Assembly: GCA_016210495.1 (NCBI GenBank)
Contig: JACQUC010000217.1
Location: 21,654-85,653, forward strand
Direction: 5' to 3'
Source: Chloroflexota bacterium
GTDB lineage: Bacteria > Chloroflexota > FW602-bin22 > JACPRP01
Length of the DNA: 64,000 bases
In this document: one piece after another, positions 26,853 to 55,892 of the stretch
How the letters are laid out: the number at the start of each line of letters is the position of its first letter
How positions within the stretch are numbered: position 1 is the first letter of the stretch
Translations under genes and position numbers: made by a program
Notes under the pieces: generated by a model
The model's input: the letters and a program-made list of their open reading frames with translations, nothing else
Told to the model about the DNA's origin: nothing
Database searches by the model: none

Positions 26853-27073
26853 TACACGTCTCCCCAAGTGCTATCTACGCGGGCCATCAACTGCAGTGCC
26901 AGGCAGCACCCGCGCACTATCTGATTGGTCCGCTCCGACCGATCCTGACAGACCTGGCGCCATACCCGTTGCCTGGCAACCGCGCGTATTAACCATACAC
27001 GGGACAGAGCGATTGTGCAACTTCCGTGCCGAGGATGCGGTAGCCTTTTTAGGCTCCCCCAAAGGCACTACTC

Positions 27074-28312: not shown

Positions 28313-28339
28313 GTCAACGCCCCAGTGTCCCTAACGCCC

Positions 28340-28367
28340 GTAGGGACGTTGCATGCAACGTCCCTAC
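28340..28367. repeat. 28-bp perfect palindrome, second copy of the 24354-24399 core
   Basis: Identical to the inner 28 bp of the 46-bp palindrome, with flanks that no longer pair. It lies in the 64-bp gap between two minus-strand glycosyltransferase genes. Confidence 0.85.
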
Positions 28368-28376
28368 AGGCACACC

Positions 28377-31995: not shown

Positions 31996-32006
31996 CGGCA
32001 AAATAC

Positions 32007-37077: not shown

Positions 37078-40000
37078 ATGGGCGAAGGCAATTCACAAGC
37101 GGGCAGTGAGCACAAGCCTCTACAAGGATGGCTTCTGCGGTACCTTCAGGCTGTGGTCCACGACCCGCTCTTGGTCCGGGCGCGCCAGCGCTACGTTCCT
37201 CTAAAGGTCGACGCTTCCCGGTCATCGAAGGACCCAACCACCTTGTCCGATGTCCTCAGAAGCTCCGGTCACATCGTGTTGCTTGGCGACGTCGGTGCCG
37301 GCAAGACCTCACTGCTGCAGGCCACGGCCTACGACTATGGCTACTACCGCCTGAATGTCGGTCACACTGACGTTTACGCTTGCACTCTGTGCGACGAGCG
37401 ACGCATTCCCGTGTACATAGAACTGGGGGGTGGCGACTGCAGACCTCTGGCAAATCTGTTCCAGGTCGCGGTCCAGGCGCGCTTGTCAGAGACGATTGAT
37501 CTTGGGGAGATCGAGCGAGCTCTGCGTGACGAGGACCTCCTCATAATGGTCGATGGCTTCGAATTCGTCCGGGTCGACAGGCACCTCGACTATCTTCGTT
37601 GCATCTCGGATGCTGTCCTCGCGAAGTACCCCCACCAGAGCTACGTTATCTCCTGTCGCTCGCATGAGATCTCTTCATTGCAGCCGTGGTTCGCCGACGT
37701 GGCACACGTCTTCTTGCAGGCGCTGGACGACGAGGACGTTGCTCGGTTCACCACGTCCGATCTCGGCGAGCGCCAGGCGCAAGACGTAATGCAGAGGCTA
37801 GGAGTTGATCGAGAGTGGTGGGAGCTCGCCAGAAACCCGATGGTCCTTGAGGCGCTTTGTTCCGTGGCGCGGGAAGCAAAGGATTTCACGTCGACGAGCA
37901 CCGCGAAGCTGGTGGTGTCGCTGACCGACGTCTTGGCGGCCCAGTCCGTGCGCGGTTGGGATCGGACCGGCCCATGCTCCACCTCTTCCGGGGATCGTCC
38001 CGACGGTTTCATCGGCACAAACGCGTCGGCACGGGCTGAAGCCGATGCAGGCTTCGTAGAGCACGCAGACAGGGCAAAGGTATCGGTAGACGCGGCGACG
38101 ATCGATAGCTGCCTGGCTGCACTCGCCACAACCATGCAGCGTGCTGGGACACGTTCCGTTACCCGCGAGCAGTTATTGGAGGCGATCCAGGAACTTCTCC
38201 CTGGGCACGGGACAGGTGAGCTGGTTAGCGAAGCCTGGCCCGTCCTGGTCAATACCGGTATCGTCTCGCTCGATCAGTCTCGAGGCCAGGTTACGTTCAG
38301 CAGCGTCCTTTTTCGACACCATTACGGCGCGATGGCCCTTCGTAAGGCACTGGCGACCGGACGCTCTTTGGCTGAAGTTCTGCACTCGAGTGCTATCGCC
38401 GGCGATTGGGAAGGCTCCCTGGTACTGCTCTACGGGCTTACCGAGGATCGCCAGCGGTTCTTGCGCGAACTTGTCGGGCAGGGTGATAGGTACGAAAACG
38501 TGCTGCTGGCCGTCAGATGTTTGATGGCCGAACACCCGACAGGCGGGTACCGGAGGCTGGTAAGACTCGATCCGCTCAACGTCCAGGTGCATCGCGCGTT
38601 CGGACGCGCCTTCAGACAGATCGAGCGGTTTGACGAGGCTCGCCAGGCTCTGGAAGATGCCGTAAGACTGGAGCCAAATCAGGCGACCATCCACCAAGAA
38701 CTGGCGGCGGTGCTGGTCGAGCAAGGCAGATTCGAGCAGGCGTCAAAGGAGTTCCAAACGGCGTGTCGCCTCAGCGGCAATCAGATGGAACTGCATCTCG
38801 GTCTTGGAGCGATCCACCTCCGTCAGAAGCGCTGGGCTGAGGCCAGGGGTGAAATCGACATCGCGGAGGAACATCTGAGGCTCGATCAGGCCGAGATCTA
38901 TCATCTGAGAGGACACGTCTGCGAGGGCGAGGGGCTGCTCGCAGAGGCTCATCAGGAGTACTGCCAGGCCATTTGCCTGTCGGCATCCCCCCATCTCTGG
39001 TTCCACGCTGGCGCGGTTCGCCGGCGGCTGGGGGAGCGTGAGTCCGCCCTGGAGGCCCTGGTGCAGGCCGTGCAGCTCTGGCCCGATAGCGTCGAAGCTC
39101 ACCGTGAGCTTGGCCTTCTTCACGAATCGCAGGCGCAATATGAGCCTGCTGTTCATGAGTATCGCTTGGCGGCAAGATTGCAGCCGGAAGCTGCAGAGAA
39201 CTACATCAATCTGGGAAGAGTGCATCGGAAATTAGGTAAGATGGCTCAAGCAGCCGCCGAGCTCGGTCGAGCGATAAGTCTGCACGGCTCATCGCACGAG
39301 GCTTACGCCGAACTGGGCCTCGTGTTCGAGCACCGAGGCCAACACGAGGAGGCGCTGGCCCAGTACCGTCACGCGAGGCAGTTGGCACCTGAGAGGGCGG
39401 AGTATTACCAGAGGGTTGGCTGGGTTTTGAGGGTTATGGGAAGGCTGAGCGAGGCCGAGGTCGAATTGGGCATCTCCGTGAAGCTTGATCCGAGCGAGGC
39501 CGATTACCGCGACCAGTTGGGCGCGATACTTGCAGAACAGGCACGCTTTGTCGATGCGCTGGAGCAGTACACGCAGGCCGTGGCATTGCGGCCGCACGAT
39601 CCCGTGCATCACCACAACGTCGGCGCGATGCTGGCGCGTCTCGGCAATTACCAGGCTGCTATCCCAGCCCTAATGGAGGCTGTCCGGCTCAGTGGTGGAT
39701 CCGGCGACGGCCGTTCGGCGAGCTCGGAGCTGGCGCTCTCCACGGCGGTGGTCGCGGCCGATGCTCACAGCGAGTTGGGCTTGGTGTACGAGAAGATCGA
39801 GCAGCACGACAAGGCCTTGTACCATTATCGACGGTCCGCCGATTTGATGCCCCTCTCGGAAGCTTACTGGCTGCGGCAGGGGCTCGTTTACCGGCGGCTC
39901 TCTCGCCACGACAGAGCTTTGACGGCCATCAAGCACGCCGTCGCACTGGCGCCCGAAGACGCCGATCTGCGCCTGGAGTTGGGCGCGACGTATGAATTGC

Positions 40001-43000
40001 TGCACGACCTGGAGAGCGCGCTTCGGGAGTTCGCGCGCGCGATAGATTTGCGGCCGGACGAAGCAGGCTTCCGCATTAGGGCAGCGACCGTCTTCTCGCG
40101 GCTTGGTCGATTCGAGCAAGCAGAGGAGCAGCTAGGGCGAGCGCTCGATCTTCAGCCCCGGTCGGCGGAAGCCCACGCCGAGTTGGGCCGACTTCGCGTG
40201 GAGAAGGGTGACGTCGAGCGTGGGCTCGGCCACTGCCTTACAGCGCTCGAGATCGAACCGGACAACGCATCTTTCCATCTTGCCGCCAGCCAGGGGTTTC
40301 GGCACGCAGGGCAACTCGAGGAAGCCATCAAAGAGGCGGAGCGCGCCGCCGAGTTGAGCGCTGATCTTGCCGAGGTGTGGTTCCAGTTGGCCCAACTGCA
40401 CGCCGAGACTGGCAGTGCAGAGAAGGCTGCGCGTTGCGCCCAACGCGCGGCCAACCTGGACGAGACAAGCCCTGTGTACGCGCGCTTGGCAGGACAACAT
40501 CTCTCTGGGCTCGGGCGAGCCGAAGATGCGATTGTGTACCTTCGCCGAGCCGCAGAAGGTGAGCCAAACAAGGCCGAGGCACACTTTGCGCTGGCGGCGG
40601 CTCTCGCCAAGACTGGAAGACTCGAGGACGCGCTTGCGGAGTACGAGCAGGCCTGCACGCATGAAGCGGGCTCGGTCACTTACTTGCTACGCCTTGGCGA
40701 GTGCCTGCTTCGCCTAGGACGGCCCGGCGACGCGGTCGGGAATCTTTTGAAGGCCGTGACCATCGATCCTGGCCTTGAAGACGGGCACGCGATGATCGCC
40801 AGAGGCCTTGCGGAGCTGGGAAAACATCGCGCGGCGTTGGACCGTCTTCGCTTGGCCAGCGGGCTGGCTCCCATGGAGGCCCGGTATTTCCAGGAGATGG
40901 CTGCCATACAGATGGCCCTGGAAGAATGGTCAGAGGCAGCCGAATCGGCACGCCAAGCGATGCGGCTTGGCTGTCAGGAGGCTGCGCTGCACCACATCCT
41001 TGGTAAAGCCGTGCAACGGCAGGGTGCCTGGCAGGAGGCTAGCGACGCACTGGCGCGTGCCGTCGAGTCCGCTCAGAGCGTTGCGGCGTTCGACCGTGAT
41101 CTGGCGATGGCTCACTGTCGATTGGGATCGGCTGAGAGCGCTGCCGAACGCCTGGCGCGGGCCGTGGCTCGCGAGGAAAACGTTCAATGGAGGTGTGAGC
41201 TGGGCTGTATCCAGGACATACTTGGTCGTCCTGAGACGGCACTCGTCCACTTCGAGCGATTGGCCCCTCCAATCGCGTCCAGCACGGCCATACAGCGCAA
41301 GCTCGGCCTGCTCTATTGGCGTTTTGGGCGTTCGCAACCCGCCATTGTGGCGCTTGAGGAAGTCGACAAGCGAGGCGACGCCGACGGCACCGTGCGCGTC
41401 GCTTTGGGCTCGGCTTACACGACGTCGGGTCAGTTCGAGCCGGCCAGGGTTCAGTTGGAGATGGCCCTTGCCGAGGAGCCCGACTCGCCGGTACTCCACA
41501 CCACCATCGCGGCGCTGTACCGCACTATGTTGGCGGCGGGGCAGCACAAGATGGAAGAGCACGGAAGGCCCACTCTTGAGCTCACCGTCGAAAGCCTGAA
41601 CAGGGCGCTGAACCTGGACCCGGGCTATGCTGAGGCCCAATGTGAGCTCGGCCGTCTGCATGAGACAACTGGGGCTGACGACAAGGCGCTAGACCAGTTC
41701 CGAAAGGCGCTGTCCCTCAAACCGACAGAGCCGGCCTATCGTTGTCTCGCTGCGGAGACGCTGCTTCGCCTGGGAAGGCCGGACGAGGCCTTGGCCTTGG
41801 TCCAGGAGGCCCTGGACCGGGGGCAGACACATCCGGCCCTCTCGCACCAACTGGGACGCGTTCTCGAGCGAAAAGAGGTGCGGGCCGAGGCGTTGGCATC
41901 CTACCAGCAAGCTGCGGACTTGGCGCCAGACAACGCACAGTATCGATACGATCTGGGCATGTTGAAACACAGGCTCGGGCGCCGGGACGCCCAATCCGAC
42001 GTGGCTCAGGCCATAAGAATGATGCCAAACAGACCGGACTGGCATTGTCAGCTGGGCCACCTAATCGAGAAGCAAGGCGACGCTACGAGCGCCCTGGAGG
42101 AGTATCGGCAGGCCGCCGCCGGGGCGCCGAAGGTCGATGAATACCACCGGAGCATCGGACGCGTGCTGCGTCTGCTGAGTCGCCTGGACGAAAGCATCGA
42201 AGCTCTGCAGATGGCGCTGTCGCTGAACCGCTCTGCCCAGAACTTGACCGAGCTGTCGATCACCCGTCAGCGGCAGGGGCATTTCCAGGAGGCGCTCCGT
42301 TGTGCTCAGCAGGCCACGAAACTGGATCCTGGGAACCCCATTAGCCGGCTACGCGTGGCGGTGGCCCTGAAGCTAACAGGTCAGCGCGCCAAAGCGGCTG
42401 AAGACATGGAGTCGGTGGTCAAGCAGTCCCAACAGTTTGCAGATGGGCACTACGAGCTTGGCAACCTGTTGGAGGAAGATGGCCGAGTTGAAGAGGCGCT
42501 GCGGCATTATCAGAAGGCTGTCGAGCTAGAGCCAGGCGATTCAGTCCACCTGTGCGCTCTCGCGCGTGGGCACCGAACGCTGGGGCAGCTCGATCTGGCA
42601 GGCGAGCGTCTCTCGCGAGCCGTGACGTTGTCTCCTAGGAGCGCGACTGTGTACCACGAGATGGCGAAGCTGTCAGAGGCAAGGTCACGCTACGCCGAAG
42701 CTTTGGCGTCCTACCAGCGGGCCATAGAGCTGGACCCCCGTACTGATTTCCATCGTGACCTGGCTAAGTTGCTGCAAACAATGGGGAAAACGAAGGAGGC
42801 GTTGGCCGCGATGCGCAAGGTAGTCGACCGTGAGCCGCGCATTGCACAGTGGCAGAGCGACCTGGGAGACATCTACGATCAGCAGGGGGCATACGATCAG
42901 GCGATCGGGCAGTATCAGCGCGCCATCCGCCTGGACGCGCACAACCCTGAGTTCCACCGGAATCTTGGCGTTGCTCTGAAGAAGGCGGGCAAGTACGAGG

Positions 43001-43122
43001 ATGCCATGGTGGAGCTACAGAGGGCACTGGAGCTCAAACCCGATTACGCGGACGCTTATCGCCACCTCACGGCCGCTTCGGCCTCGGCGCTCTTGCGGAA
43101 GACGATCAAGAAAGACAAGTAG
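37078..43122 (+). CDS. Giant NACHT-like STAND NTPase with ~44 TPR units (NLR-like sensor 1)
   Basis: 2014 residues. Residues 15-45 hold a motif shared with the second giant (LLRYLQAV-x2-DP-x8-YVPL). The NTPase follows: Walker A GDVGAGKT (70-77), Walker B LLIMVDG (154-160), sensor VISCR (190-194), then ELARNPMVLEALC, the NACHT-type helical segment. A linker/winged-helix-like region runs to ~495, where GYRRLVRLDPLN introduces TPRs that fill the rest (34-residue units with the A-VRLEP--A--H-ELG--Y pattern). Two irregular insertions interrupt them (around 39.69-39.76 kb and 41.52-41.59 kb). The tail KPDYADAYRHLTAASA matches that of the second giant. AGGAG eight bases before ATG supports the start. 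The architecture is that of a ligand-triggered oligomerising switch; the ligand is unknown. Confidence 0.85.
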   Translation: MGEGNSQAGSEHKPLQGWLLRYLQAVVHDPLLVRARQRYVPLKVDASRSSKDPTTLSDVLRSSGHIVLLGDVGAGKTSLLQATAYDYGYYRLNVGHTDVYACTLCDERRIPVYIELGGGDCRPLANLFQVAVQARLSETIDLGEIERALRDEDLLIMVDGFEFVRVDRHLDYLRCISDAVLAKYPHQSYVISCRSHEISSLQPWFADVAHVFLQALDDEDVARFTTSDLGERQAQDVMQRLGVDREWWELARNPMVLEALCSVAREAKDFTSTSTAKLVVSLTDVLAAQSVRGWDRTGPCSTSSGDRPDGFIGTNASARAEADAGFVEHADRAKVSVDAATIDSCLAALATTMQRAGTRSVTREQLLEAIQELLPGHGTGELVSEAWPVLVNTGIVSLDQSRGQVTFSSVLFRHHYGAMALRKALATGRSLAEVLHSSAIAGDWEGSLVLLYGLTEDRQRFLRELVGQGDRYENVLLAVRCLMAEHPTGGYRRLVRLDPLNVQVHRAFGRAFRQIERFDEARQALEDAVRLEPNQATIHQELAAVLVEQGRFEQASKEFQTACRLSGNQMELHLGLGAIHLRQKRWAEARGEIDIAEEHLRLDQAEIYHLRGHVCEGEGLLAEAHQEYCQAICLSASPHLWFHAGAVRRRLGERESALEALVQAVQLWPDSVEAHRELGLLHESQAQYEPAVHEYRLAARLQPEAAENYINLGRVHRKLGKMAQAAAELGRAISLHGSSHEAYAELGLVFEHRGQHEEALAQYRHARQLAPERAEYYQRVGWVLRVMGRLSEAEVELGISVKLDPSEADYRDQLGAILAEQARFVDALEQYTQAVALRPHDPVHHHNVGAMLARLGNYQAAIPALMEAVRLSGGSGDGRSASSELALSTAVVAADAHSELGLVYEKIEQHDKALYHYRRSADLMPLSEAYWLRQGLVYRRLSRHDRALTAIKHAVALAPEDADLRLELGATYELLHDLESALREFARAIDLRPDEAGFRIRAATVFSRLGRFEQAEEQLGRALDLQPRSAEAHAELGRLRVEKGDVERGLGHCLTALEIEPDNASFHLAASQGFRHAGQLEEAIKEAERAAELSADLAEVWFQLAQLHAETGSAEKAARCAQRAANLDETSPVYARLAGQHLSGLGRAEDAIVYLRRAAEGEPNKAEAHFALAAALAKTGRLEDALAEYEQACTHEAGSVTYLLRLGECLLRLGRPGDAVGNLLKAVTIDPGLEDGHAMIARGLAELGKHRAALDRLRLASGLAPMEARYFQEMAAIQMALEEWSEAAESARQAMRLGCQEAALHHILGKAVQRQGAWQEASDALARAVESAQSVAAFDRDLAMAHCRLGSAESAAERLARAVAREENVQWRCELGCIQDILGRPETALVHFERLAPPIASSTAIQRKLGLLYWRFGRSQPAIVALEEVDKRGDADGTVRVALGSAYTTSGQFEPARVQLEMALAEEPDSPVLHTTIAALYRTMLAAGQHKMEEHGRPTLELTVESLNRALNLDPGYAEAQCELGRLHETTGADDKALDQFRKALSLKPTEPAYRCLAAETLLRLGRPDEALALVQEALDRGQTHPALSHQLGRVLERKEVRAEALASYQQAADLAPDNAQYRYDLGMLKHRLGRRDAQSDVAQAIRMMPNRPDWHCQLGHLIEKQGDATSALEEYRQAAAGAPKVDEYHRSIGRVLRLLSRLDESIEALQMALSLNRSAQNLTELSITRQRQGHFQEALRCAQQATKLDPGNPISRLRVAVALKLTGQRAKAAEDMESVVKQSQQFADGHYELGNLLEEDGRVEEALRHYQKAVELEPGDSVHLCALARGHRTLGQLDLAGERLSRAVTLSPRSATVYHEMAKLSEARSRYAEALASYQRAIELDPRTDFHRDLAKLLQTMGKTKEALAAMRKVVDREPRIAQWQSDLGDIYDQQGAYDQAIGQYQRAIRLDAHNPEFHRNLGVALKKAGKYEDAMVELQRALELKPDYADAYRHLTAASASALLRKTIKKDK

Positions 43123-43123
43123 A

Positions 43124-43369
43124 TCACTTCGCCTCGACGACCTTGACAAGATTACCCTCATCGTCCACCGTCGCCCGGATGATCCTCACCAGTTGCTTCC
43201 CATCGGCGGCCTCCACGACTTTGCGGAAGCTGAAGATCTGCATCGGTGCCCTCGTCTGGCCACCGGCCACATGTGGCGGCCCAAACTCCACGATCGGCTC
43301 GACGCCCCGCAATTCGGGATAGCGCCGGTAGATCTCGGCCCGCACCTTCTTGATTCGTTCCTCGTCCAT
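43124..43369 (-). CDS. Small protein sharing its C-terminal domain with the C25-like protease
   Basis: An 81-residue protein (MDEERIKKVRAEIYRRYPEL...). Its last ~36 residues (FSFRKVVEAADGKQLVRIIR, then ATVDDEGNLVK) align with the C-terminal tail of the protease encoded at 51670-54291 (FTSRKIVHAEDGRKVPRLAR, then ATLDEVGSVLK), with roughly 16 identical positions. ATG 43369 coincides with the predicted transcript start of the promoter at 43376-43404, so the mRNA looks leaderless and the longer frame to 43474 is excluded. It ends one base from the stop of the first giant gene, convergently. The function is unrecognised; an adaptor, inhibitor or decoy for the protease is inferred. Confidence 0.7.
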   Translation of the reverse strand: MDEERIKKVRAEIYRRYPELRGVEPIVEFGPPHVAGGQTRAPMQIFSFRKVVEAADGKQLVRIIRATVDDEGNLVKVVEAK

Positions 43370-43375
43370 AGCTGC

Positions 43376-43404
43376 ATTATACGCAGCCCGCGAGGCCAAG
43401 GCAA
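43376..43404 (-). promoter_or_regulatory. Promoter of the small divergent gene
   Basis: On the minus strand TTGCCT (43404-43399), a 17-bp spacer and a perfect TATAAT (43381-43376). +1 falls at about 43369, the A of the start codon. Confidence 0.65.
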
Positions 43405-43422
43405 GGGACGCTTTTTCTGCTC

Positions 43423-43450
43423 TTGACTTTTGCCCCAAAACGTCTATAAT
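43423..43450 (+). promoter_or_regulatory. Promoter of the membrane protein-NTPase 2-protease operon
   Basis: TTGACT (43423-43428), a 16-bp spacer and a perfect TATAAT (43445-43450). Together with the minus-strand promoter at 43376-43404 it forms a compact divergent control region inside the system. Confidence 0.7.
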
Positions 43451-43548
43451 CCAAACAAGCACGCTCGGAGGCAAGCGTGTGCCTATCGTGGTGACCTGCG
43501 AGAAAGGGTCCGCTCATTTTGCAGCAGTTGTTTGGGGGAGACGCGGTA

Positions 43549-43857
43549 GTGCTGGTGATCAAGACGGCGATGGCAGTCATCCTGTTTGGGATGGGCGTGG
43601 CATCCTTTCTCTCCGGGTTACTTATCATTCTCTCGAGAGAGTACCAGGACACGTTGAAGACCATATCCGGCCATTCGGCCAAGATCAGCAGCAAGGCCAT
43701 TACCGACGAGGGGGTGGCACCAACCATCGAAGCTGCCTCACGTCTGGTCGAAGCTGTGGCGAAGTTGATTCAAACGGCCGTCGGCGTCGGTGCTTTCCTC
43801 GCCATTCTTGGAGTGGCTGTCTCGGTAATCGCTTTTTGGATGCTCTCGACTACATAG
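43549..43857 (+). CDS. Small two-helix membrane protein within the NTPase/protease locus
   Basis: A 102-residue protein with one N-terminal hydrophobic helix (about 5-30: TAMAVILFGMGVASFLSGLL), a polar helical middle (YQDTLKTISGHSAKISSKA, GVAPTIEAASRLVEA) and a C-terminal helix (LIQTAVGVGAFLAILGVAVS...). GTG 43549 with GGGGGAG eight bases upstream is preferred over TTG 43519. I recognise no family. It is the first gene after the promoter at 43423-43450. It could anchor or sense for the downstream NTPase, or be a membrane-perturbing effector; both are speculation from position and topology. Confidence 0.6.
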   Translation: MLVIKTAMAVILFGMGVASFLSGLLIILSREYQDTLKTISGHSAKISSKAITDEGVAPTIEAASRLVEAVAKLIQTAVGVGAFLAILGVAVSVIAFWMLSTT

Positions 43858-43862
43858 TTCCT

Positions 43863-43968
43863 GGTGCAAAATGCGAAGCGTAGGGGCGAGGGTGGATGGG
43901 CATCCGTAGGGGCGGACGTCTTCTGTCCGCCCGGGGTGGGGCGGGGCGCGTGGCAACCGTTTTGCACC
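43863..43968. repeat. MITE-like intergenic repeat with GGTGCAAAA ends
   Basis: GGTGCAAAA (43863-43871) and TTTTGCACC (43960-43968) are exact inverted repeats. They enclose a GTAGGGGCGAGGGTGG segment and a full GTAGGGGCGGACGTC/GTCCGCCC hairpin with the CGGGGTGGGGCGGGG tail. It lies between the small membrane protein and the second giant gene. Confidence 0.85.
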
Positions 43969-44009
43969 GACGACTGGATCTGCCGAGGGGGAGTGTTAGG
44001 AGGGTGTGA

Positions 44010-47000
44010 TTGGGTATGGCAGGGGAGACGGCGTCCAACAGCGCCCATGACCGGACGGTCGCAGGTGACTCGGCGACGATCGAGTCATCGCTCCTGCGAC
44101 GCTATCTCCAGGCGGTCAGAACGGACCCTGACAACGTTGCCGCGTTCCGCAACTACGTTCCGCTGCGACTGATCCCCCAGTCGATAGATCGTGCGGCCCG
44201 AGAGCCGTTGTCCGGCTCCGGCCTCTCCGAGCTGGACATCCAGGGCGCGGTCGCGCCTGGGCTGGCCCCCCTGGGGGTACTGGATATCCTCAAAGCTGGC
44301 CACCGCCTGCTCTTGTTCGGGGATCCTGGATCCGGCAAGACTCTGACCCTGCGTAGGCTCGCCCACGACTATGCCGATTTCTGCCTGTCTCATCCCAGCC
44401 CGGTCCCTTCGGCAGACATGCTCGCTACGGAGAAGCGCATCCCTATCTACCTGCCGCTGCACCTCTTCCACGAGGGTAGGGTCGAGGACTTGATTCTTTG
44501 CCAACTCGAGCTGTACAAGCTCCAGGACACGGCCGCGCAGACCCTGCGGGCGCTCTTGAAAGAGGAGAACGTCCTTTTTCTGATCGACGGCCTCAGCGAG
44601 ATTCCGAGCCATTATCAACTGGAAGGCACTACCCTGCTCGCGAGGTTCCTGGAGAAGAAGCACCCACGCCACAAGTGCATTCTGACGTGCCGCGTCCAGG
44701 ATTCCATAACCCTGCGCGCCTTCTTTGGCGGCGCCAAGACCTATGTGGTCGCTGCGCTGACGGATGACGACATGGAACAGTACCTGGCGAAGTATCACGG
44801 CCAGGAGGCTAGGCAGGCTATCGCCAGAGAGATGGCTGCTGACCCCAAGATCTGGGAGTTGGCACGCAACCCGCTGGTGCTGGGCAAGGTGGCCGACGTG
44901 GCGATTTCCAGCGGGGGATCGCTCGTCACCGACCGCGCCCGGAAACTGCGACAAATCGCCAGCAGCATCGCGAGTTGGGCCGACGCGAAGGTGCCGGACG
45001 GGGATAGGGTCGACGCGGCCCTGCGCGAGCGCGCGCTGGGCCAACTGGCTCTTGCAATGCAGGAAAAGGACACGCTGAGCCTGGACAGAGGCGAATGTCA
45101 CGCCATTATTCGTGAGATCGCCGCTCACGGACTCGAAGGCCAGGCAGTGGGGTGGATGGTCCGGCAGATGATGGACTCGCTCACCCACAGCGGCTTGCTC
45201 AAGCTCTCTCGCGATTGGGAAAGCTTTGAGTTCGCGCACGAGCTGCTGAGAGAGCTGTTCGCCGCCCTTGGGCTCAAACAGCGCCTGGAGCAGAATGACA
45301 GCCTGTCCGAGCTCATCGACAACGATGCCCGTCGCCAGCGCTGGAGCGGGCCTGTCGCCTTGCTGTACGGATTGCTGGATGACCCGTCGCAACTGGTCAA
45401 CGAGATCGTCGGGGACGGGGAGTCCTACCCGCGCGTGAAGATGGCAGCTCGATGTATCATCGAGAACGAGCCACCGGAACGGCGAGGATACGCCATCAGG
45501 CTCGACTCGAACAACGCCCACACTCAGTTCTATCTCGGACTGGCCCTCAAGGAGATGGGCTACTACGAGGCGGCGGCGGCATCGTTGTCATTCGCAGTGA
45601 CTACCCGACCGGACAGGGCCGATTTCCACAACGAGCTCGGATCTGTCTACAGCCTGATGGGTCGTTACGAGGAGGCTCTTACTGAATATCGGGAAGCCGT
45701 CAGAATCGAGCCGAACGATCCGGTTTTCCGGCGCAACGCAGGCGTGCTCTATGGACAGCTCGAATGTCCGGAGGAAGCCGCGGCTGAGCTGGAACAGGCG
45801 GTGGCACTGTTTCGCCAGCAGGCCGCCGACGCGCACGAGCAATTGGGACTCGTCTACGAGCGTCGCAATCTTTTCGATGAGGCGCTCCTGCAGTATCAGG
45901 CGGCAGTCGATCTGGTGGCGACCGAGCCCGCCTACCAGTATCGCCTCGCCACGGTCGCAAGAAAGCTTGGTCGGCACGATCAGGCAGTGGAAGCGCTGCG
46001 CCAGGTGGTCGTCCTGCACCCGGGCCACGCCGCGGCTCACTCCGAGCTAGGGGCAGTTTACAGAGAGCAGGGCTGGCTGAGCGAAGCGTTGACAGAGTAC
46101 CGGATGGCCGCCGAGCTGGAGCCAGGGAGGGCGGCACACCAGTTCTCGACGGGAACAATTCTGAAGGACCTCGGCCGGCACGCTGAGGCCCTGGCCAGTT
46201 TGCGTCGTGCGCTCGAACTGGATCGCGACTACGCCGAGGCGCTGAACGAGCTCGGCTTGATCCTTGCCCATTTGGGCCAGCACGAGGAGGCATGCCGTGT
46301 CCTCCGGCGCGCGGTGCAGCTAAAGCCTGGCGAGGCGCCATATCGCCGGAACTTGGGCGTTGCCACTGCTCAGCTCGGTAGGTACGCGGAAGCAACGCAG
46401 GAGTTGGAAGAAGCAGTCCGGCAATGGAACGACTACGCGCCGTGGCGCGCTGATCTGGGCGAAGCTTATGCGCTTCAAGGGCGTCACGAGGAGGCCCTGC
46501 GCGAATTCCTCCGCGCCATCGCCCTCGAGCCCGACGAAGCACTGTATCATCACAAAGCGGGAACTGCCCATAGAGCGCTCCGCCGCCTCGACGAGGCAGA
46601 GGCGGCACTTCGCCGCGCCATCGCAGCCGAGCCGAATCGGGCCGAGTCCCACAACGAGCTAGGGAAGGTTCACGAGCAACAAGGAAGGCTGGAGGACGCA
46701 CTGACCGAGTACCGGCGCGCAGTCGAGCTAGCTCCCGAGGAGGCGGTCTACAGGCGCAACGCCGGCGTGATCTATCGGAAGTTGAATCGCCACGACCAGG
46801 AGATTGAGGAACTGGAACGCGCGGCCAGTCTCAGGCCCGAATACGGCGACGTATACAACGAACTGGGGAGTGTGTACGAGCGCCAAGGCCTACTGAGCGA
46901 AGCACTCGAACAGTACCAGCGCGCTGTGCAACTGGAGCCGAGCGAGGCGGTGTACCGGTGCAACCTTGGCGTGGTGCAGCGGCAGCTTAAACAGTACGAT

Positions 47001-50000
47001 GAGGCTACCGCCAACCTGGGGATGGCCATACGCCTGGCGCCAGATTTTGCGGATGCCTACTTCCAGCTCGCCTCGGTTCACGAGCTTGAGGGACGAGACG
47101 AGGAGGCCACGGCCAAGTTTCGGCAGGCCGTTCGACTGGAGCCAGAGAATGCGGTCTATCGTCGAGCTTACGGCGTGAGCTGCCGGCGGTTGAGGCGACT
47201 TAACGAGGCCGCTTCCGAGCTCGAGCGCGCCCTAACGCAGGCATCGGATGACGCCGATACCCACAACGAGTTGGGGATAGTGTACGCGCTGCAGGGACGG
47301 CACGACGAGGCCATTCGGCGCTATCAGCGGGCACTGGAGATTGCCCCCGATCGACCGGTATATCGACGCAACGCGGCAGTCGTGTATCGCCAGTTGGAGC
47401 TATACGACCTGGCCATGGCACAGCTCGAAAAGGCGGTCGAGGCCGATCCGGATCGAGCCGACTGGTATGCTGAGCTTGGCCTGATCTTCGAAGCGCAGGG
47501 ACGTTTTGAAGATGCCTTGCACCAGTGCCGGCGGGCCGTGGATCTCAATCCAGACGAGCCGAGCTATCACCTAAGCGTCGGGGCGGCATCCATCCGTTTG
47601 GGAAGGCTCTCCGAGGCCGCGACGGCTCTGCAACGTGCCATCGGGTTGAAGCCGGATTACGCCACTGCTGAGAAGGAGTTGGGCACGGTCTATAGCCTCC
47701 TTGGACATCACGAGGAAGCGCTAGAGCACTTCCAACGCGCCGTTAATTTGGAGCCGGGAGAGGCAACGCACTACCGCAATGTGGCTGCGGCACTCGTGGC
47801 GCTTGGAAAGCGAGGAGAGGCCGTCGAGCATTTCAGGCACGCGCTGGGCTTGAAGGCCGAGCAGCCCGATTGGAGGAACGAGCTTGGCGACGCTTTGATG
47901 CATTTGGAACGCTGGCAGGACGCGCTAGCAGAATATGTTACGGCCAGCAGTTGCGCCAGGGACAATGGCCTCTATCACCTCAACGCCGGCCTCGCCTACT
48001 TCAAACTGGGCAAGCTATCGGACGCTGCGAGCGAGCTGGAGGAGGCAGTACGGCTCGATCCATCCAGAGCCGATTGGCGGAACGCGCTCGGCGAGGTTTG
48101 TGAGGCGCAGGGGTGGCACGAAGAGGCTCTGGCGGAGTACCAGAGGGCGGTCAACTTGGCGCCATCCGATCCGGTTTATCGGAGGAATGCGGGAGCCATT
48201 CGCCGCGTCTTGGGCGATCTGAACCGGGCCGCCCGCGACCTCCAGGAGGCCATCAACCTCAAGCCGGACTTCGCCGATGCCCACTATCACCTGGGCCTGA
48301 CCTTCCAGAATCTTGGCCGCACGTCCGATGCATTCGACGAGTTCCACAAAGCGGCTAGTCTGATGCCGGAAAGCGCCTCCTATCGGAGGATGGTTGGTCT
48401 GGCCCACGCGGACCTCAAACGATACGGCGAGGCTGTTCGCGAGCTTCAAGAAGCCATCCGCCGCGATCCCAGGTCAGCCATGCTGCATCACGAGTTGGGG
48501 ACCATCTTCGAGCAGCGCCATCAACTGGAACACGCCCTGGACGAGTACCAGCGGGCGGCGGAGCTCGAGTCTGAAAACCCGCTCTATCTGAAGAGCTCGG
48601 CCGCCGTCCTGAGTAAGCTCGGACGAAGGGAAGAGGCGCTGGCCGGCTTTCAGGCAGCCCTGGCGCTGAAGCCCGATTACGCCGAGGCGTTCAGCGAAAT
48701 GGGAATCGCCTTGCGCTCGCTGGGCGAATTCGACCAGGCATTGAGCGCCCAGAAGTCGGCCACGGAGCTGCAGCCCATGTCTGCTCGCTACCGGTACGAG
48801 CTGGCCATTACTAAGCGAGAGGCCGGCAGGCTAGATGAAGCTGCGAAGGACCTGGAGGAGGCGATTCGCCTCGAGCGCAACGTAGCTGAATGGCACGGGG
48901 AGTTGGGCGATGTTTGCCAGAGCCTGGGTCGCGAGAAGCTAGCTCTGGAGTCGTACCGCCGAGCTGTGGAGCTTGATTCGTCCAATGCGGAGTTGCACCT
49001 CAAGCTAGGCTTGGCCCTTGCTGCTGTGCAACGAACGAAGGAAGCCGCCGTCGAGCTGGAAGAGTCCGTGGCGCGCCGTCCACATCACGCCGAGGCGCGG
49101 CACGCGCTGGGGCAGGTCTACCAGCGTCAAGGCCGGCTGGAACTGGCGTTGCGCGAGCTAACCCAGGCAGTGAGCTTGCGGCCACAGGCCGCTGCCCACA
49201 GATTTGACCTGGCGGCCGTGCTGCAAGAAATGAACCGACTCGACGACGCCGCGCGCGAGCTCGAAGAGGCCGTCCGCCTGGATCCTGAACGGGCCGCCTG
49301 GCACAGCAGGCTGGGCGACATCTATCGCGCTCAGGGCCGCCACCGCGCAGCCCTCGATGAGTACCACAAGGCCAGCGAGCTAGATGCCGCCGATCCGGAG
49401 TACCACTGCAAGGTGGGCGCCACGTGCAAGGACCTGCGTCGATACGACGAAGCGCTAGCCGCCTTCGAGCAGGCCATCACAATGGCGCCGCGGTATGCCC
49501 TGGCGTTTTCGGAGCTGGGGTCCCTTTATGAGGCCCAGGATATGCTCGAGGAGGCCTTGGCCCAGTACCAACGAGCAGCTAAGCTCGAGCCGAGCGTAGC
49601 GCTCCATCGCCATCGCGTCGGCGTTGCGTGCCGGCGTCTCGGCCGGTTCCCAGACGCCCGGGAGGAGCTTAGCCGGGCGCTTGAGCTCGCGCCTAACGAT
49701 GCGGCCATTCACCACGATCTTGCTCTCGTACACGTCGAGAATCGAGATCACGAGGCCGCTCTGGCAGCTCACCAGCGAGCTGTGCAACTGAGCCCGCGCA
49801 ATGCCACGTTCCGCCAGGGGCTTGGAGTGCTTTGCGCCTTGCTGGGGCAGTATGACGAGGCCGCACGAGAACTGGAAGAGGCAACGCGGCTGGCCCCGGA
49901 CCGAGCTGGCATACACAACGAGTTGGCCGCCGTCTACGAGTCCCAGCGGCGGTTCAACGAGGCGCTCGCGCTCTATCGGCGCGCCTCTGGCTTGGCGCCC

Positions 50001-51662
50001 AACGTGGCGCTTTACCACCGCAATGTAGGAGCCGTGTTGCGGCAGCTTCGCCAGGATGAGCAAATAATGGGCGATCTGCACATTTTCGCCGGAACGTGGT
50101 CCAGCACCATCACGGAGGCCCTTGCCGAGCTGCAAGAGGCCCTGAGACTCCAGCCCGGCTACGCCGATGCCTTTTGCGAGCTGGGGCTTGTCTATCAGCT
50201 TCAGGGCAAACCAGAGGAAGCGTTGAACGCGTTCTTGCGCGCGGTGGAGCTCGATCCCGACAACGCGAGCTATCACCTGAAGCTCGGCGTACTCTATAAG
50301 CAGATGGAGAATCTAGATGAAGCGACACGGGAGCTTCAGAGCTCGGTGAAGCTCAGCAGCACCTTCGCTGAAGCCCACAATGAGCTAGGCACCGTCCTCG
50401 AGCTCCAGGGACAGCAGAAAGAGGCGCTTTCCCACTACCAGAAGGCAGCGAGGCTTCGACCCGACCGGGCGATATTCCAGCGCAATCTCGGCGCTTTGCT
50501 TCTATCGTTGCAGCGGTACGAGGACGCGGTGAAATCGCTGGAGCAAGCAGTGGCGCTTGATCCGAGCCAGGATTCATGGCACAATCTGCTCGGGATGGCT
50601 TACGAAAAGCAGGGGCGACACCTGGAGGCGCTGGTGCAATATCGGCGAGCCGTGGAGGCACAGTCCGGAGAGGGCGTCTATCACCGCAACGTCGGCGTTG
50701 CCTGTGCGCTTCTTGGCCGTTATGAGGAGGCCGCGGCCGAGTTGGAGCAGGCGGTCGCGCTGGACGCAACCGTCGCGCAGTGGTACGACGAGCTCGGTAA
50801 CGTCTACCACCACCAGGGATACCACGAGCGTGCCCTTAGTGCCATCGCTCGCGCCAAGGAGCTGAAGCCCGACGAGGCGCTCTACCACTACGACCAGGGG
50901 GTAGTGCATCGCGCTCTGGGTGAGTTCGTGGAGGCGACGGCTGAGTTACAACGCGCGGCCGAACTGGACCCGACTTTGGCACGGGCTCACAACCAGATGG
51001 GGGAGATTCACGAGCAACAGGGCAGGTACGAAGACGCGCTCGATGCGTTTCGGCGAGCGGTGGACCTGGCCCCTGATGTTGGCCAGTACTGCCGCAACGC
51101 CGGAGTGGCTTACAAGCGTATGGCTCGCTACGATGCGGCGGCGGCAGAGCTGGAAGAGGCAGCCAGGCTCGACCCAAACAACGCGGACATCCACTACGAG
51201 CTTGGCGTCGTGTATGAGATTCAGGGTCGGATCGATTCAGCGTTGCAGGAGCTAAGAAAGGCCGTGGAGTACGAACCGCAAAAGGCCACTTACCGCCGCA
51301 GCCTGGGCCGTCTCTATCGCGATTTGAAGCGATATCAAGCCGCACGCGGTGAGCTGGAGCAGGCCCTCCAACTGGAGCCAGAGCGTGCCGAATGGCACAA
51401 TGACCTTGGAACGGTCTACGAAGCGGAGGAGAATCACCTCGACGCTCTTCTCGAGTACGAACAGGCCATCAAGCTTGATCCTCAGGAGGCCACTTACCAT
51501 CGAAACGCGGGCGTAGTGCTTAAGCAACTGAAGCGGTACGACGAGGCCTTGGTGGAGCTGCAGAAAGCCGTGAAATTGAAGCCGGACTACGCCGATGCGA
51601 TCCGACAGTTGGCAGCGGTACACGCTTTGGCGCTCATCATGCGCGGCCTCAAGCGGCAGTAG
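44010..51662 (+). CDS. Giant NACHT-like STAND NTPase with ~60 TPR units (NLR-like sensor 2)
   Basis: 2550 residues. N-terminal motif SLLRRYLQAVRTDP...YVPLRLIP (27-56) is shared with the first giant. NTPase: Walker A GDPGSGKT (104-111), Walker B VLFLIDG (188-194), sensor ILTCR (224-228), ELARNPLVLGKVA (~284-296). The junction RRGYAIRLDSNN (~491-502) opens an array of about 60 TPRs to the C-terminus, many near-consensus (ALTEYREAVRIEPND, AVYRRNAGVIYRKL). A non-TPR insert (QIMGDLHIFAGTWSST) interrupts it near 50.07 kb. AGGAGG (43998-44003) is six bases from TTG 44010 and twelve from ATG 44016, so TTG may be the true start. The protease gene starts after a 7-base gap, strongly suggesting coupled expression and a shared complex. 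Confidence 0.87.
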   Translation: MGMAGETASNSAHDRTVAGDSATIESSLLRRYLQAVRTDPDNVAAFRNYVPLRLIPQSIDRAAREPLSGSGLSELDIQGAVAPGLAPLGVLDILKAGHRLLLFGDPGSGKTLTLRRLAHDYADFCLSHPSPVPSADMLATEKRIPIYLPLHLFHEGRVEDLILCQLELYKLQDTAAQTLRALLKEENVLFLIDGLSEIPSHYQLEGTTLLARFLEKKHPRHKCILTCRVQDSITLRAFFGGAKTYVVAALTDDDMEQYLAKYHGQEARQAIAREMAADPKIWELARNPLVLGKVADVAISSGGSLVTDRARKLRQIASSIASWADAKVPDGDRVDAALRERALGQLALAMQEKDTLSLDRGECHAIIREIAAHGLEGQAVGWMVRQMMDSLTHSGLLKLSRDWESFEFAHELLRELFAALGLKQRLEQNDSLSELIDNDARRQRWSGPVALLYGLLDDPSQLVNEIVGDGESYPRVKMAARCIIENEPPERRGYAIRLDSNNAHTQFYLGLALKEMGYYEAAAASLSFAVTTRPDRADFHNELGSVYSLMGRYEEALTEYREAVRIEPNDPVFRRNAGVLYGQLECPEEAAAELEQAVALFRQQAADAHEQLGLVYERRNLFDEALLQYQAAVDLVATEPAYQYRLATVARKLGRHDQAVEALRQVVVLHPGHAAAHSELGAVYREQGWLSEALTEYRMAAELEPGRAAHQFSTGTILKDLGRHAEALASLRRALELDRDYAEALNELGLILAHLGQHEEACRVLRRAVQLKPGEAPYRRNLGVATAQLGRYAEATQELEEAVRQWNDYAPWRADLGEAYALQGRHEEALREFLRAIALEPDEALYHHKAGTAHRALRRLDEAEAALRRAIAAEPNRAESHNELGKVHEQQGRLEDALTEYRRAVELAPEEAVYRRNAGVIYRKLNRHDQEIEELERAASLRPEYGDVYNELGSVYERQGLLSEALEQYQRAVQLEPSEAVYRCNLGVVQRQLKQYDEATANLGMAIRLAPDFADAYFQLASVHELEGRDEEATAKFRQAVRLEPENAVYRRAYGVSCRRLRRLNEAASELERALTQASDDADTHNELGIVYALQGRHDEAIRRYQRALEIAPDRPVYRRNAAVVYRQLELYDLAMAQLEKAVEADPDRADWYAELGLIFEAQGRFEDALHQCRRAVDLNPDEPSYHLSVGAASIRLGRLSEAATALQRAIGLKPDYATAEKELGTVYSLLGHHEEALEHFQRAVNLEPGEATHYRNVAAALVALGKRGEAVEHFRHALGLKAEQPDWRNELGDALMHLERWQDALAEYVTASSCARDNGLYHLNAGLAYFKLGKLSDAASELEEAVRLDPSRADWRNALGEVCEAQGWHEEALAEYQRAVNLAPSDPVYRRNAGAIRRVLGDLNRAARDLQEAINLKPDFADAHYHLGLTFQNLGRTSDAFDEFHKAASLMPESASYRRMVGLAHADLKRYGEAVRELQEAIRRDPRSAMLHHELGTIFEQRHQLEHALDEYQRAAELESENPLYLKSSAAVLSKLGRREEALAGFQAALALKPDYAEAFSEMGIALRSLGEFDQALSAQKSATELQPMSARYRYELAITKREAGRLDEAAKDLEEAIRLERNVAEWHGELGDVCQSLGREKLALESYRRAVELDSSNAELHLKLGLALAAVQRTKEAAVELEESVARRPHHAEARHALGQVYQRQGRLELALRELTQAVSLRPQAAAHRFDLAAVLQEMNRLDDAARELEEAVRLDPERAAWHSRLGDIYRAQGRHRAALDEYHKASELDAADPEYHCKVGATCKDLRRYDEALAAFEQAITMAPRYALAFSELGSLYEAQDMLEEALAQYQRAAKLEPSVALHRHRVGVACRRLGRFPDAREELSRALELAPNDAAIHHDLALVHVENRDHEAALAAHQRAVQLSPRNATFRQGLGVLCALLGQYDEAARELEEATRLAPDRAGIHNELAAVYESQRRFNEALALYRRASGLAPNVALYHRNVGAVLRQLRQDEQIMGDLHIFAGTWSSTITEALAELQEALRLQPGYADAFCELGLVYQLQGKPEEALNAFLRAVELDPDNASYHLKLGVLYKQMENLDEATRELQSSVKLSSTFAEAHNELGTVLELQGQQKEALSHYQKAARLRPDRAIFQRNLGALLLSLQRYEDAVKSLEQAVALDPSQDSWHNLLGMAYEKQGRHLEALVQYRRAVEAQSGEGVYHRNVGVACALLGRYEEAAAELEQAVALDATVAQWYDELGNVYHHQGYHERALSAIARAKELKPDEALYHYDQGVVHRALGEFVEATAELQRAAELDPTLARAHNQMGEIHEQQGRYEDALDAFRRAVDLAPDVGQYCRNAGVAYKRMARYDAAAAELEEAARLDPNNADIHYELGVVYEIQGRIDSALQELRKAVEYEPQKATYRRSLGRLYRDLKRYQAARGELEQALQLEPERAEWHNDLGTVYEAEENHLDALLEYEQAIKLDPQEATYHRNAGVVLKQLKRYDEALVELQKAVKLKPDYADAIRQLAAVHALALIMRGLKRQ

Positions 51663-51669
51663 GGGCAGG

Positions 51670-54291
51670 GTGACTTTGAAGCTCGACGATCTTTGCAGGC
51701 GCGCCGACCTGGCCATTCGACTGGGCGCCATCGATTACGCCGTCGCCGTGTGCCAGCACATCCTCGGCTACTTCCCAAACCACATTCAGGCCCGTTGCCT
51801 TCTTGGCCAGGCTCATCTGGAGCAAGGCGCTCTAGCGAAAGCCGGCGAGCAGTTCCGGTCTGTGCTGGAGGTCGATCCCGAGAATGTCCTGGCCAGGAGT
51901 GGGCTTGGCGTCGTATCCATGCGCATGGGGGATCCAGCGGGCGCGACCGAGCACTTCGAGCAAGCCTATGAGATCAATCCCAACAACCCCGAGGTAGCCG
52001 CTGGTTTGCAGCAGATCTATGCACAACGCGATGGCACCGAGCCGCCTCAGTTGAAAGCTCCAGCGGCGGCCGTTGCTCGCTGGCGGTCTCACAAGAAGCA
52101 ATATGCGCACGCTGTGAAGGAGTTCGACGATCTCCTTGGCGTGCAACCTGGCAATCTCCTGCTCGAGCTTGCGCGCGCCGAGGCCGTCTGGAAAAACGGT
52201 ATGACGGGCGAGGCCGAACGCTGCTGCGTCAGTATCTTGCGACGGGCGCCGACCTGCCTCAAGGCCAAGCTGATCCTGGCCGAGATACTCACTCGCGACA
52301 GAGCTCGGGAGAAGCAGGGCCTCTCGCTTCTGCACGAAGCCCTGGGGATTGACCCCGGCGGTACTGTGGCCGATGAGCTCTTCAAGAATACCGCCTTCAA
52401 AGTGCCCCGCGCCGGTGAAGAGATCGAAATCCCTCTGCCCGCCAACGGCTGGGCCGAAACACCGCCTCAGGTGGAAGCGGCGCTGGCTGTTTTCCCCAAG
52501 TCGCTCGTGCAAGAGACCGAGGCTGAATGGACGCCACCTCCTGAGCTGCTGGCATCGCCGCCTGTCGACGAGCCGAAGGTGCCTGGCGACCCGGAGTTGG
52601 CCAGAATTCACGCGGATTTCGAGCGCATCGCAGGAAGCGTTTTGCACAGCAAAGGGCCCCGGGTTTCGTCTCCCCGCCGTGCCCCTTCCAAGCTCACGGA
52701 GTTGATCGTCACCAGCAAACGGAAGATCGTCGGCAAGTACGGCCAGGAAGGATTTGAGAGGCTGGATGCCAAGCTGCGCGATTACCAGAACGTTCTCAAG
52801 TCCTTCGATTTGGACGCTCAACTCGTGTACGTGGATGCCGAGGACGGCATGGAAGCGAATGGACTAACTCCGATAGACCCGGAGCAACCCAACGACGTGA
52901 AGCGGGTGATCGACAGGCTGGATGTGGTGGCTTCGCAAACCGGCCGACACCTGGGAAACGTGCTGATCATCGGCGGCGACTCAATTATTCCCTTCCATCG
53001 CCTGTCCAATCCCACTCAGGACGACGACGTCGACGTGGCATCTGACAACCCCTACGGCTCGAAGGATACCGAGTTCCTGACACCAGAGCGTGCCGTCGGC
53101 AGGATGCCCGATGCCGAAGACGCGGGGATTACCCTGCTGCTGGCACAGATCGACACGGCTATGGCGCACCGCCACGAGCGTGCACCGATCAGTGAGCCTC
53201 TGGGATGTCTGGCGGTTCTGTTTGCTCTGGGGGTCAACGTCAAGCTCAGCGTTCCCAAGCTGAGTCGCTCCGCCTTTGGCTACTCCGCGCTCGTCTGGAA
53301 AGATGCTTCGGCCAGCGTGTTCCAGAGTATCGGCGATCCCAGCCGCTTGCTAACCAGCCCGCCGGTGACCGAGCAGGTTTTCGATCTTAACTGGCTGCTG
53401 GGCAGCTCCCTGAACTACTTCAACTTGCACGGTGCCAAGGATTCCGAGTTCTGGTACGGCCAGAAGGACCTGACATATCCCGAGGATTACCCGATGATGC
53501 CGGTCGCCTTGAGCCCGGCGCTCGTGGCTCAGGCCAACGTCTCATCTTCAGTGGTCTTTACTGAGGCGTGCTATGGCGCCGGCATCATTGGCAGATCGCC
53601 GGCCAATTGCATTGCCCTGCGCTTTCTATCCGAAGGCGCGCTGGCGGTAGTGGGCTCGACAGTAACTTCCTATGGTGTCCCCGCCCCACCCCTGAGCAGT
53701 GCCGATCTGCTGGCAGTCTATTTCTGGCAGAACGTAGGCCGCGGCCTGTCGATTGGTGAGGCGCTCGTCAAGGCGAAGGTGTCTCTGATGAACGAGATGC
53801 TGGAGCGCCAGGGATGGCTGGACGGCGACGACCAGAAGACGCTGCTGGAGTTCGTGCTTTACGGCGACCCGTCGTGTTATCTGGACAAAGCCCCTGAGCT
53901 AAGGAAGAACGCCCACGTGGCCCAGCCAAAGCGCGTCTTGCGCACGCGCCCGCACCTGTTCTGCCGCCGGCGGTCTTCAGCCAAGCAGGATCACGAGGTT
54001 CCCAAGGAGATCATCTACAAAGCTATGGACCACATCCAGACCTGCTGTCCTCACATGCACGATGGCAGCATTAAGATCGCCTGCTGCGTGAGCTGCGACG
54101 GGCATTGTGGTATCTACTGCCAGTGCGGCGCCGGCGAGCACCATACTCACGAGGTCTCGACTCCACAGAAAGTGCTCACGTTTACGTCCAGAAAGATCGT
54201 GCACGCCGAGGACGGCCGCAAAGTGCCACGGCTGGCCCGCGCGACCCTGGACGAGGTCGGCAGCGTCCTAAAAACGGTCGTTTCGAGGTAA
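51670..54291 (+). CDS. TPR-linked gingipain (C25)/caspase-like cysteine protease with Cys/His-rich tail
   Basis: 873 residues. N-terminal ~110 residues are TPR-like (ARCLLGQAHLEQGALAKAGE), followed by further helical repeats to ~250. The protease core lies at about 400-750: NVLIIGGDSIIPFHRL, SDNPYGSKDTEFLTPERAVG, catalytic His587 in YFNLHGAKDSEFWYG and Cys634 in VVFTEACYGAGI, then LSEGALAVVGSTVTSYG. This order (GGD-IP, SDN, VGRMP, HG, ACYG, GSTVTSYG) is that of peptidase C25, in the caspase/separase/CHAT fold. A Cys/His cluster (~795-830: CCPHMHDGSIKIACCVSC, CQCGAGEHHTHE) may bind zinc. The last ~36 residues match the small protein at 43124-43369. GTG 51670 (TTG 51676 alternative). It is probably activated through TPR contact with the upstream NTPase. 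Confidence 0.85.
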   Translation: MTLKLDDLCRRADLAIRLGAIDYAVAVCQHILGYFPNHIQARCLLGQAHLEQGALAKAGEQFRSVLEVDPENVLARSGLGVVSMRMGDPAGATEHFEQAYEINPNNPEVAAGLQQIYAQRDGTEPPQLKAPAAAVARWRSHKKQYAHAVKEFDDLLGVQPGNLLLELARAEAVWKNGMTGEAERCCVSILRRAPTCLKAKLILAEILTRDRAREKQGLSLLHEALGIDPGGTVADELFKNTAFKVPRAGEEIEIPLPANGWAETPPQVEAALAVFPKSLVQETEAEWTPPPELLASPPVDEPKVPGDPELARIHADFERIAGSVLHSKGPRVSSPRRAPSKLTELIVTSKRKIVGKYGQEGFERLDAKLRDYQNVLKSFDLDAQLVYVDAEDGMEANGLTPIDPEQPNDVKRVIDRLDVVASQTGRHLGNVLIIGGDSIIPFHRLSNPTQDDDVDVASDNPYGSKDTEFLTPERAVGRMPDAEDAGITLLLAQIDTAMAHRHERAPISEPLGCLAVLFALGVNVKLSVPKLSRSAFGYSALVWKDASASVFQSIGDPSRLLTSPPVTEQVFDLNWLLGSSLNYFNLHGAKDSEFWYGQKDLTYPEDYPMMPVALSPALVAQANVSSSVVFTEACYGAGIIGRSPANCIALRFLSEGALAVVGSTVTSYGVPAPPLSSADLLAVYFWQNVGRGLSIGEALVKAKVSLMNEMLERQGWLDGDDQKTLLEFVLYGDPSCYLDKAPELRKNAHVAQPKRVLRTRPHLFCRRRSSAKQDHEVPKEIIYKAMDHIQTCCPHMHDGSIKIACCVSCDGHCGIYCQCGAGEHHTHEVSTPQKVLTFTSRKIVHAEDGRKVPRLARATLDEVGSVLKTVVSR

Positions 54292-55753: not shown

Positions 55754-55810
55754 GAATCACGGCATCGGGTTGCCCCACTTACTTAGAGGCACGATGCCCG
55801 CCCAGGAATT

Positions 55811-55835
55811 CGTAGGGGCGAGGTCTCCTCGCCCC
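55811..55835 (+). repeat. GTAGGGGCGAGG repeat fragment
   Basis: CGTAGGGGCGAGGTCTCCTCGCCCC hairpin. A GGAGGTGGGGTGG string about 40 bp further on matches the usual tail and provides the ribosome site of the next gene. Confidence 0.65.
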
Positions 55836-55892
55836 GTCTGCCAAAGCGATGGCAACTGCAAAGTGTCGCGTCGCGAGGAGGTGGGGTGGTTT

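Follow-up and report, generated by a model that had tools for sequence, protein, structure and literature searches.

A 64,000-nucleotide stretch of a Chloroflexota genome (contig JACQUC010000217.1, positions 21,654 to 85,653; hereafter the window) carries at 37078-54291 a locus that encodes two giant TPR proteins, a small protein on the minus strand, a two-helix protein and a TPR-C25 protease. We tentatively read this locus as a proteolytic switch that is encoded in the chromosome, is inherited for the most part vertically and follows the logic of NLR proteins, an interpretation to which we give somewhat less than an even chance. What is observed comprises the linkage of the genes, the folds predicted for their products, the catalytic residues, congruence between nucleoside triphosphatase (NTPase) and protease distances, and a sigma-54 consensus in relatives. 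Here a protease of the gingipain fold is joined by a complete NLR-type module, and the genes have the look of an inherited, physiologically regulated set and not of a mobile one. If the reading is right, bacteria would have a counterpart of the inflammasome that serves something other than phage defence. The initial annotation of this DNA had recognized the locus as such, and its observation is confirmed, including the close spacing of giant 2 and protease: the open reading frame (ORF) of C25 begins 7 bases past that of giant 2. It had omitted one part, the GH-like gene that follows the protease gene (Table 1).

Gene linkage, predicted folds and catalytic residues

Relatives of the protease came from two sources: a scan of genome contigs, which confirmed 236 stretches and from which the 80 best were retained, and a draw of 251 Chloroflexota genomes (centre genome included), 20 of which held the protease with one match each at E ≤ 1e-10. 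A giant was counted as linked when an ORF of at least 1000 residues lay directly upstream of C25, and loci with less than 6 kb of upstream DNA (24 of the 80 and 2 of the 20) were set aside. The giant stood directly upstream of C25 in 52 of 56 loci with enough DNA, one of these giants (L030) being an ORF of only 1022 residues. A two-helix gene on the same strand was found in 53 of the 56, including all 52 with a linked giant, and the intergenic gaps in linked loci were a few bases. The corresponding counts in the phylum draw were 11/18 for the giant and 12/18 for the two-helix gene, or 9/14 and 10/14 without the contigs already counted. (Six drawn contigs, L083, L084, L088, L090, L094 and L100, recognized by their length, were already among the 80; they were kept in the 11/18 and dropped from the tree and from the Cys/His, sigma-54, NtrC and gene-order counts.) Homologues that are mostly unlinked, the outcome against which the initial annotation had set its claim, were thus not what we found: relatives within Chloroflexota keep the giant and protease genes together. 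That the giant TPR proteins and the C25 protease are neighbours in this contig by chance is hardly credible in view of this linkage, the short gaps and the congruent distances described below, even though no giant is seen in L001 and L081, the nearest relatives of the window protease (L081 has 6.3 kb of upstream DNA, L001 just 1.4 kb).

Giant 2 matched NACHT in Pfam (4.3e-12), and its model shows the NACHT fold of NLR proteins with NBD, HD1, WHD and HD2, in agreement with the STAND fold expected for it. A C-terminal repeat region is present in the form of the TPR array, for which a role in sensing is predicted. No N-terminal effector or adaptor domain was seen ahead of the P-loop in the model, where there are a low-confidence tail (residues 1–18), helices (24–46) and a low-confidence stretch (57–82). 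The Pfam matches of giant 1 were weaker (AAA_22, 8.9e-7; NACHT, 0.002, with 18.4 bits against a cut-off of 26.7); its motifs read GDVGAGKT (Walker A) and LLIMVDG (Walker B). A wide protein search with the giant 2 NTPase gave 1 distant match among 7982 scored, and a locus-based alignment was used instead. Walker A and Walker B residues were intact in 19/19 of the modules aligned, that of giant 1 among them. The two giants had been described as paralogous NTPases, and both indeed keep their Walker motifs, but the paralogy is old and giant 1 is no recent copy: the giants share 27% identity, as against 46–47% between giant 2 and its relative in L082, which rules out a recent tandem duplication as their source. 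Nor do the counts support the pair as a feature of the system: of 95 loci, many of them cut by contig ends, only the window and L045 had two ORFs of at least 1300 residues. The second large ORF of L045 (13352-19681, 2110 residues) lies 3' of C25 and has no match among the profiles that we built.

The model of the protease shows a gingipain/caspase fold with the gingipain catalytic fold present, as the caspase-like fold proposed for it required, and a structure search ranked C25 gingipains far above TPR-CHAT. The His of the catalytic dyad was found in 94/95 protease cores and the Cys in 91/95. Of the 36 members aligned, 20 had a match to Peptidase_C25 (PF01364); the window protein itself had no Pfam match to this family, but the precomputed family list does assign PF01364 to it. 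By profile, its sequence matched RgpB with an E-value of only 0.29, and the alignment does not span the S1 pocket. The cores without the Cys (L002, L003, L006 and L087; L006 also lacks the His) form one clade with support 100/100. The upstream DNA of L002, L006 and L087 reaches 6 kb or more, yet shows no giant or two-helix gene, while L003 has too little for a giant to be judged; all four retain a GH-like gene. This loss of the Cys, though a single event, couples protease activity to the giant module.

Regulation and genes that accompany the locus

Of the 61 loci tested, 34 have an NtrC-type regulator no more than 4.5 kb upstream of their two-helix gene, and in 28 of these 34 a histidine kinase accompanies it; the gene family of the sigma-54 factor was clustered in 19/81 sources. 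When loci were divided by NTPase class (leaving out 3 with too little upstream DNA), NtrC was present in 6/17 NTPase and 28/44 NTPase-less loci, and mutual exclusion of NACHT and NtrC control is therefore unsupported. Sites were counted with what we take to be the sigma-54 consensus. A first trial found a site in 26 of 54 regions, compared to 34 of 1080 random windows. With a narrow search region, which began 300 nt ahead of the stop-to-stop ORF and ended 60 nt into it, the two-helix ORF had sites in 26/56 sources and 0/10 independent ones, as against 2/66 on the reverse strand and 19/2046 for other ORFs. After sites appeared near its edge, the region was enlarged to 200 nt inside, with the ORF control enlarged alike; at no more than one mismatch, the two-helix ORF then had sites in 37/56 sources and 4/10 independent ones, and other ORFs in 30/2046. 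(Control ORFs were at least 150 residues long, spurious frames included.) Narrow-region sites were also found at GH-like genes (11/39), C25 profile matches (13/187), and genes for NtrC (4/47), FtsZ (3/36), the small protein (1/50), the kinase (1/36) and AlaRS (0/14).

The small protein, which the initial annotation had seen to share the tail of the protease, is homologous over its full length to the C25 C-terminal domain; hhalign bears this out with a probability of 99 and an E-value of 6.3e-18, which applies to one single comparison. Its gene is held by 38/95 loci, and where an FtsZ gene is also present the small gene lies directly 3' of it in 30 of 32 cases. NCBIfam names one representative of these neighbours FtsZ, with 374.8 bits, and at least two FtsZ matches were found in 13/16 genomes. 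L035 (5361-6752) is an example of FtsZ before the free copy of the C-terminal domain, and several genomes hold a second FtsZ copy. The window is arranged differently: its small gene, read from the minus strand, has giant 1 on one side and the two-helix gene on the other, and does not come after FtsZ. In L051, L098 and L099, the C25 genes encode 369–642 residues and have a small-protein homologue directly downstream; L051 is a record titled uncultured archaeon.

The GH-like gene lies directly downstream of C25 in 29 of the 37 loci that hold it. Its name is an assumption of ours from motifs, a putative catalytic Glu motif among them. None of the 20 members scanned matched Pfam at E ≤ 0.01, and a PDB sequence search found no match; a proven glycosidase was dropped as a description on these grounds. 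In this family (window 54401-55753; P0128-P0246), some longer relatives carry PF08486 (SpoIID) in the precomputed list.

A proposed proteolytic switch weighed against a static scaffold

We infer assembly, activation, substrate and output of the system as follows. The giant TPR protein would form a platform and is probably also the sensor. In NACHT-bearing giants, the NBD-HD1-WHD-HD2 module would open once the TPR array has bound a ligand, leading to nucleotide exchange and oligomerization. The TPR-C25 protease would use its own TPRs to dock on this platform, and either proximity or a change of conformation, as in TPR-CHAT, would switch it on. The membrane anchor of the complex, or else its substrate, may be the two-helix protein, and the small protein may compete for the partner of the protease C-terminal domain, thereby setting a threshold. 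The output would most likely be a change of the cell envelope or of division, up to cell death, as suggested by the GH-like and amidase neighbours in the window and by FtsZ beside the small gene in relatives. A more specific version, which we regard as rather doubtful, is an inflammasome-like proteolytic machine, chromosomally inherited in Chloroflexota, that would be induced through histidine kinase, NtrC and sigma-54 in numerous lineages and NLR-gated in others. It would cleave a membrane or divisome target, its partners being FtsZ and the free C-terminal-domain copy, so that cells of the filament are fragmented, remodelled or killed.

Several observations weigh against the switch as first outlined. 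A P-loop pattern was present in the first 250 residues of 12/52 linked giants (5/11 in the draw), and the same giants matched the NTPase profile; the other 40 of the 52 had neither pattern nor profile match, and an NTPase switch therefore cannot be essential to the family. The loss of the catalytic Cys was one event only, and the Cys is kept in some loci where no giant adjoins C25 (L028, L058, L081, L097, L098 and L099, although the giant of L058 may be split). Whole-chain superposition of the protease model on TPR-CHAT and on separase (9hn0_B), the latter of a different family and context, was poor, with a root-mean-square deviation of about 22 Å. The window has no sigma-54 site 5' of its two-helix gene, the best candidate having 3 mismatches, and, unlike many relatives, no NtrC neighbour. 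Finally, the link to the envelope draws on neighbouring genes and on a GH-like family without Pfam or PDB match, whose putative catalytic Glu residues are not among the conserved columns.

The NTPase-less giants bring up the alternative of a physiological regulator without NLR switching, in which a static TPR scaffold would place the protease at the membrane or septum, control would be transcriptional (histidine kinase, NtrC and sigma-54) and the NACHT would be an optional add-on. Of the 49 NTPase-less rows in the tree built from 95 protease cores, 47 group together in a clade of 62 rows (support 90/95), which favours such a scaffold, as do the sigma-54 sites, the NtrC neighbours and the place of the small gene behind FtsZ. 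(The other two, L011 and L012, lie apart from this clade, inside an NTPase group.) However, most of the early branches of the midpoint-rooted tree carry NTPase-bearing giants, which makes the NTPase look ancestral, and the Walker residues are retained in every module aligned. We consider the static scaffold unlikely. With the root at the midpoint, loss of the NTPase is the likelier direction, though unproven.

Where the NTPase is present, its distances are congruent with those of the protease (Mantel r 0.92, 0/5000 permutations, 18 loci). The NLR- or apoptosome-type logic put forward initially stands in part: linkage and folds speak for it, while the NTPase as defining part, the two giants as a feature and the conflict label, discussed below, are not supported. 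NTPase-less versions occur in Longilinea arvoryzae KOME-1, Anaerolinea thermolimosa IMO-1, Bellilinea caldifistulae GOMI-1 and Thermanaerothrix daxensis GNS-1, which we take to be cultured filamentous strains. Nature itself offers experiments by which the role of each part of the proposed switch can be tested: the clade that lost the Cys, the one without the NTPase, and the sigma-54 sites.

Relation to defence systems and known proteases

The locus had also been likened to bacterial conflict systems, a label that the searches do not sustain. At E ≤ 0.01, the C25, two-helix, small and GH-like proteins and the giant 1 NTPase module had 0 matches in PADLOC. The giant 2 module matched one model (E 0.0017) over 26 residues, the repeats of the giants matched TPR-bearing models, and an ABC ATPase in the window matched one model, its Pfam content being Wzt-like. 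A phage search gave no match, and the plasmid matches were just 9, all alphaproteobacterial and below 29% identity. There was one match per genome in 11/14 genomes, the other three adding one strong or a few weak ones, and the neighbours in relatives are regulatory or housekeeping genes (rpoN, NtrC, histidine kinase, FtsZ and AlaRS). Together with the congruent distances, these results argue against an anti-phage system of the bNACHT/Avs type, in which the TPR array would sense a phage product, the NACHT would oligomerize and the C25 would kill by abortive infection. We hold this explanation to be improbable, although an NLR fold with a separate caspase-fold effector would suit it, as would the patchy presence in the phylum (20/251 genomes) and the STAND systems with caspase-like peptidases reported from multicellular bacteria, including chloroflexi, in the accessible part of PMC7159879.

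The alphaproteobacterial plasmid C25 genes were rejected as the same system: two annotated regions showed no giant within 9 kb (their gene table being incomplete, and a third region without annotation), and none of the three regions matched the small-protein or two-helix profiles. In L101 and L102 (Bradyrhizobium and Rhizobium plasmids), a distant C25 gene directly adjoins a gene of 80–87 residues that has no small-protein profile match, and L102 has a caspase-family gene nearby.

NLRC4, NLRP3 and the bacterial NACHT protein bNACHT25 (accessible part of PMC12169576) likewise carry a C-terminal repeat region behind an NBD-HD1-WHD-HD2 module. Unlike these, the giant has no N-terminal effector domain, the effector candidate being a separate gene; its TPR array spans about 2000 residues, the module is optional in the family, and the locus is known from genes and models. 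The window C25 differs from the gingipains RgpB and Kgp in its N-terminal TPRs, its own C-terminal domain and the linked giant platform. The Craspase TPR-CHAT protein (Csx29 of type III-E CRISPR) likewise joins a TPR domain and a caspase-fold protease in one chain, under control of a partner (accessible part of PMC10028731); no Cas7-11/gRAMP partner was found among the neighbours scanned with Pfam. The STAND, vWA-MoxR and EAD conflict systems of multicellular prokaryotes also combine an NTPase with a caspase-fold peptidase (accessible parts of PMC7159879 and PMC8195603). Pfam scans of the core proteins gave no above-cut-off match to vWA, MoxR or EAD, the small protein reaching E 0.093 against EAD1 (13.6 bits, cut-off 24.2). 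Searches of open-licence literature on C25 with NACHT, Chloroflexi/Anaerolineae, caspase or conflict systems brought up no description of the system. In the accessible parts of the sources, "C25" was not found in PMC7159879, PMC8195603, PMC3501461 or PMC10907252, nor "gingipain" in the first two, and PMC9871819 mentions Chloroflexota in the context of FtsZ with no tie to C25 found there.

Table 1. Features of the locus and its downstream neighbours, in window coordinates.
Feature	Position	Strand	Description
Giant 1	37078..43122	+	N-terminal STAND/NACHT-like NTPase and TPR array, 2014 residues
Small protein	43124..43369	-	81 residues; stand-alone copy of the C25 C-terminal domain
Sigma-70-like promoter	43423..43450	+	TTGACT, 16 bp, TATAAT; 5' of two-helix gene, read by eye
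Two-helix membrane protein	43519..43857	+	112 residues from TTG; GTG at 43549 a possible start
Giant 2	44010..51662	+	NACHT NBD-HD1-WHD-HD2 module, then long TPR array; 2550 residues
NLR-type NACHT module of giant 2	44016..45518	+	Modelled; mean predicted local distance difference test (pLDDT) 83.4, predicted template modelling score (pTM) 0.82
TPR array of giant 2	45618..51587	+	45 repeats by strict profile
TPR-C25 protease	51670..54291	+	873 residues from GTG
Domains of TPR-C25 protease			Residues: TPR ~1-237; catalytic ~340-743; C-terminal ~761-873
Catalytic His587 codon	53428..53430	+	In C25 protease gene
Catalytic Cys634 codon	53569..53571	+	In C25 protease gene
GH-like uncharacterized protein	54401..55753	+	450 residues; downstream of C25
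Amidase_2 / Big_7 / DUF5719 protein	55707..58523	+	Possible cell-wall enzyme; membership of the system uncertain

The Amidase_2 / Big_7 / DUF5719 family was clustered in 5/81 sources, the window among them. Elsewhere in the window, 24444-33227 is a polysaccharide-type cluster with glycosyltransferases, a methyltransferase and a Wzt-type ABC ATPase.
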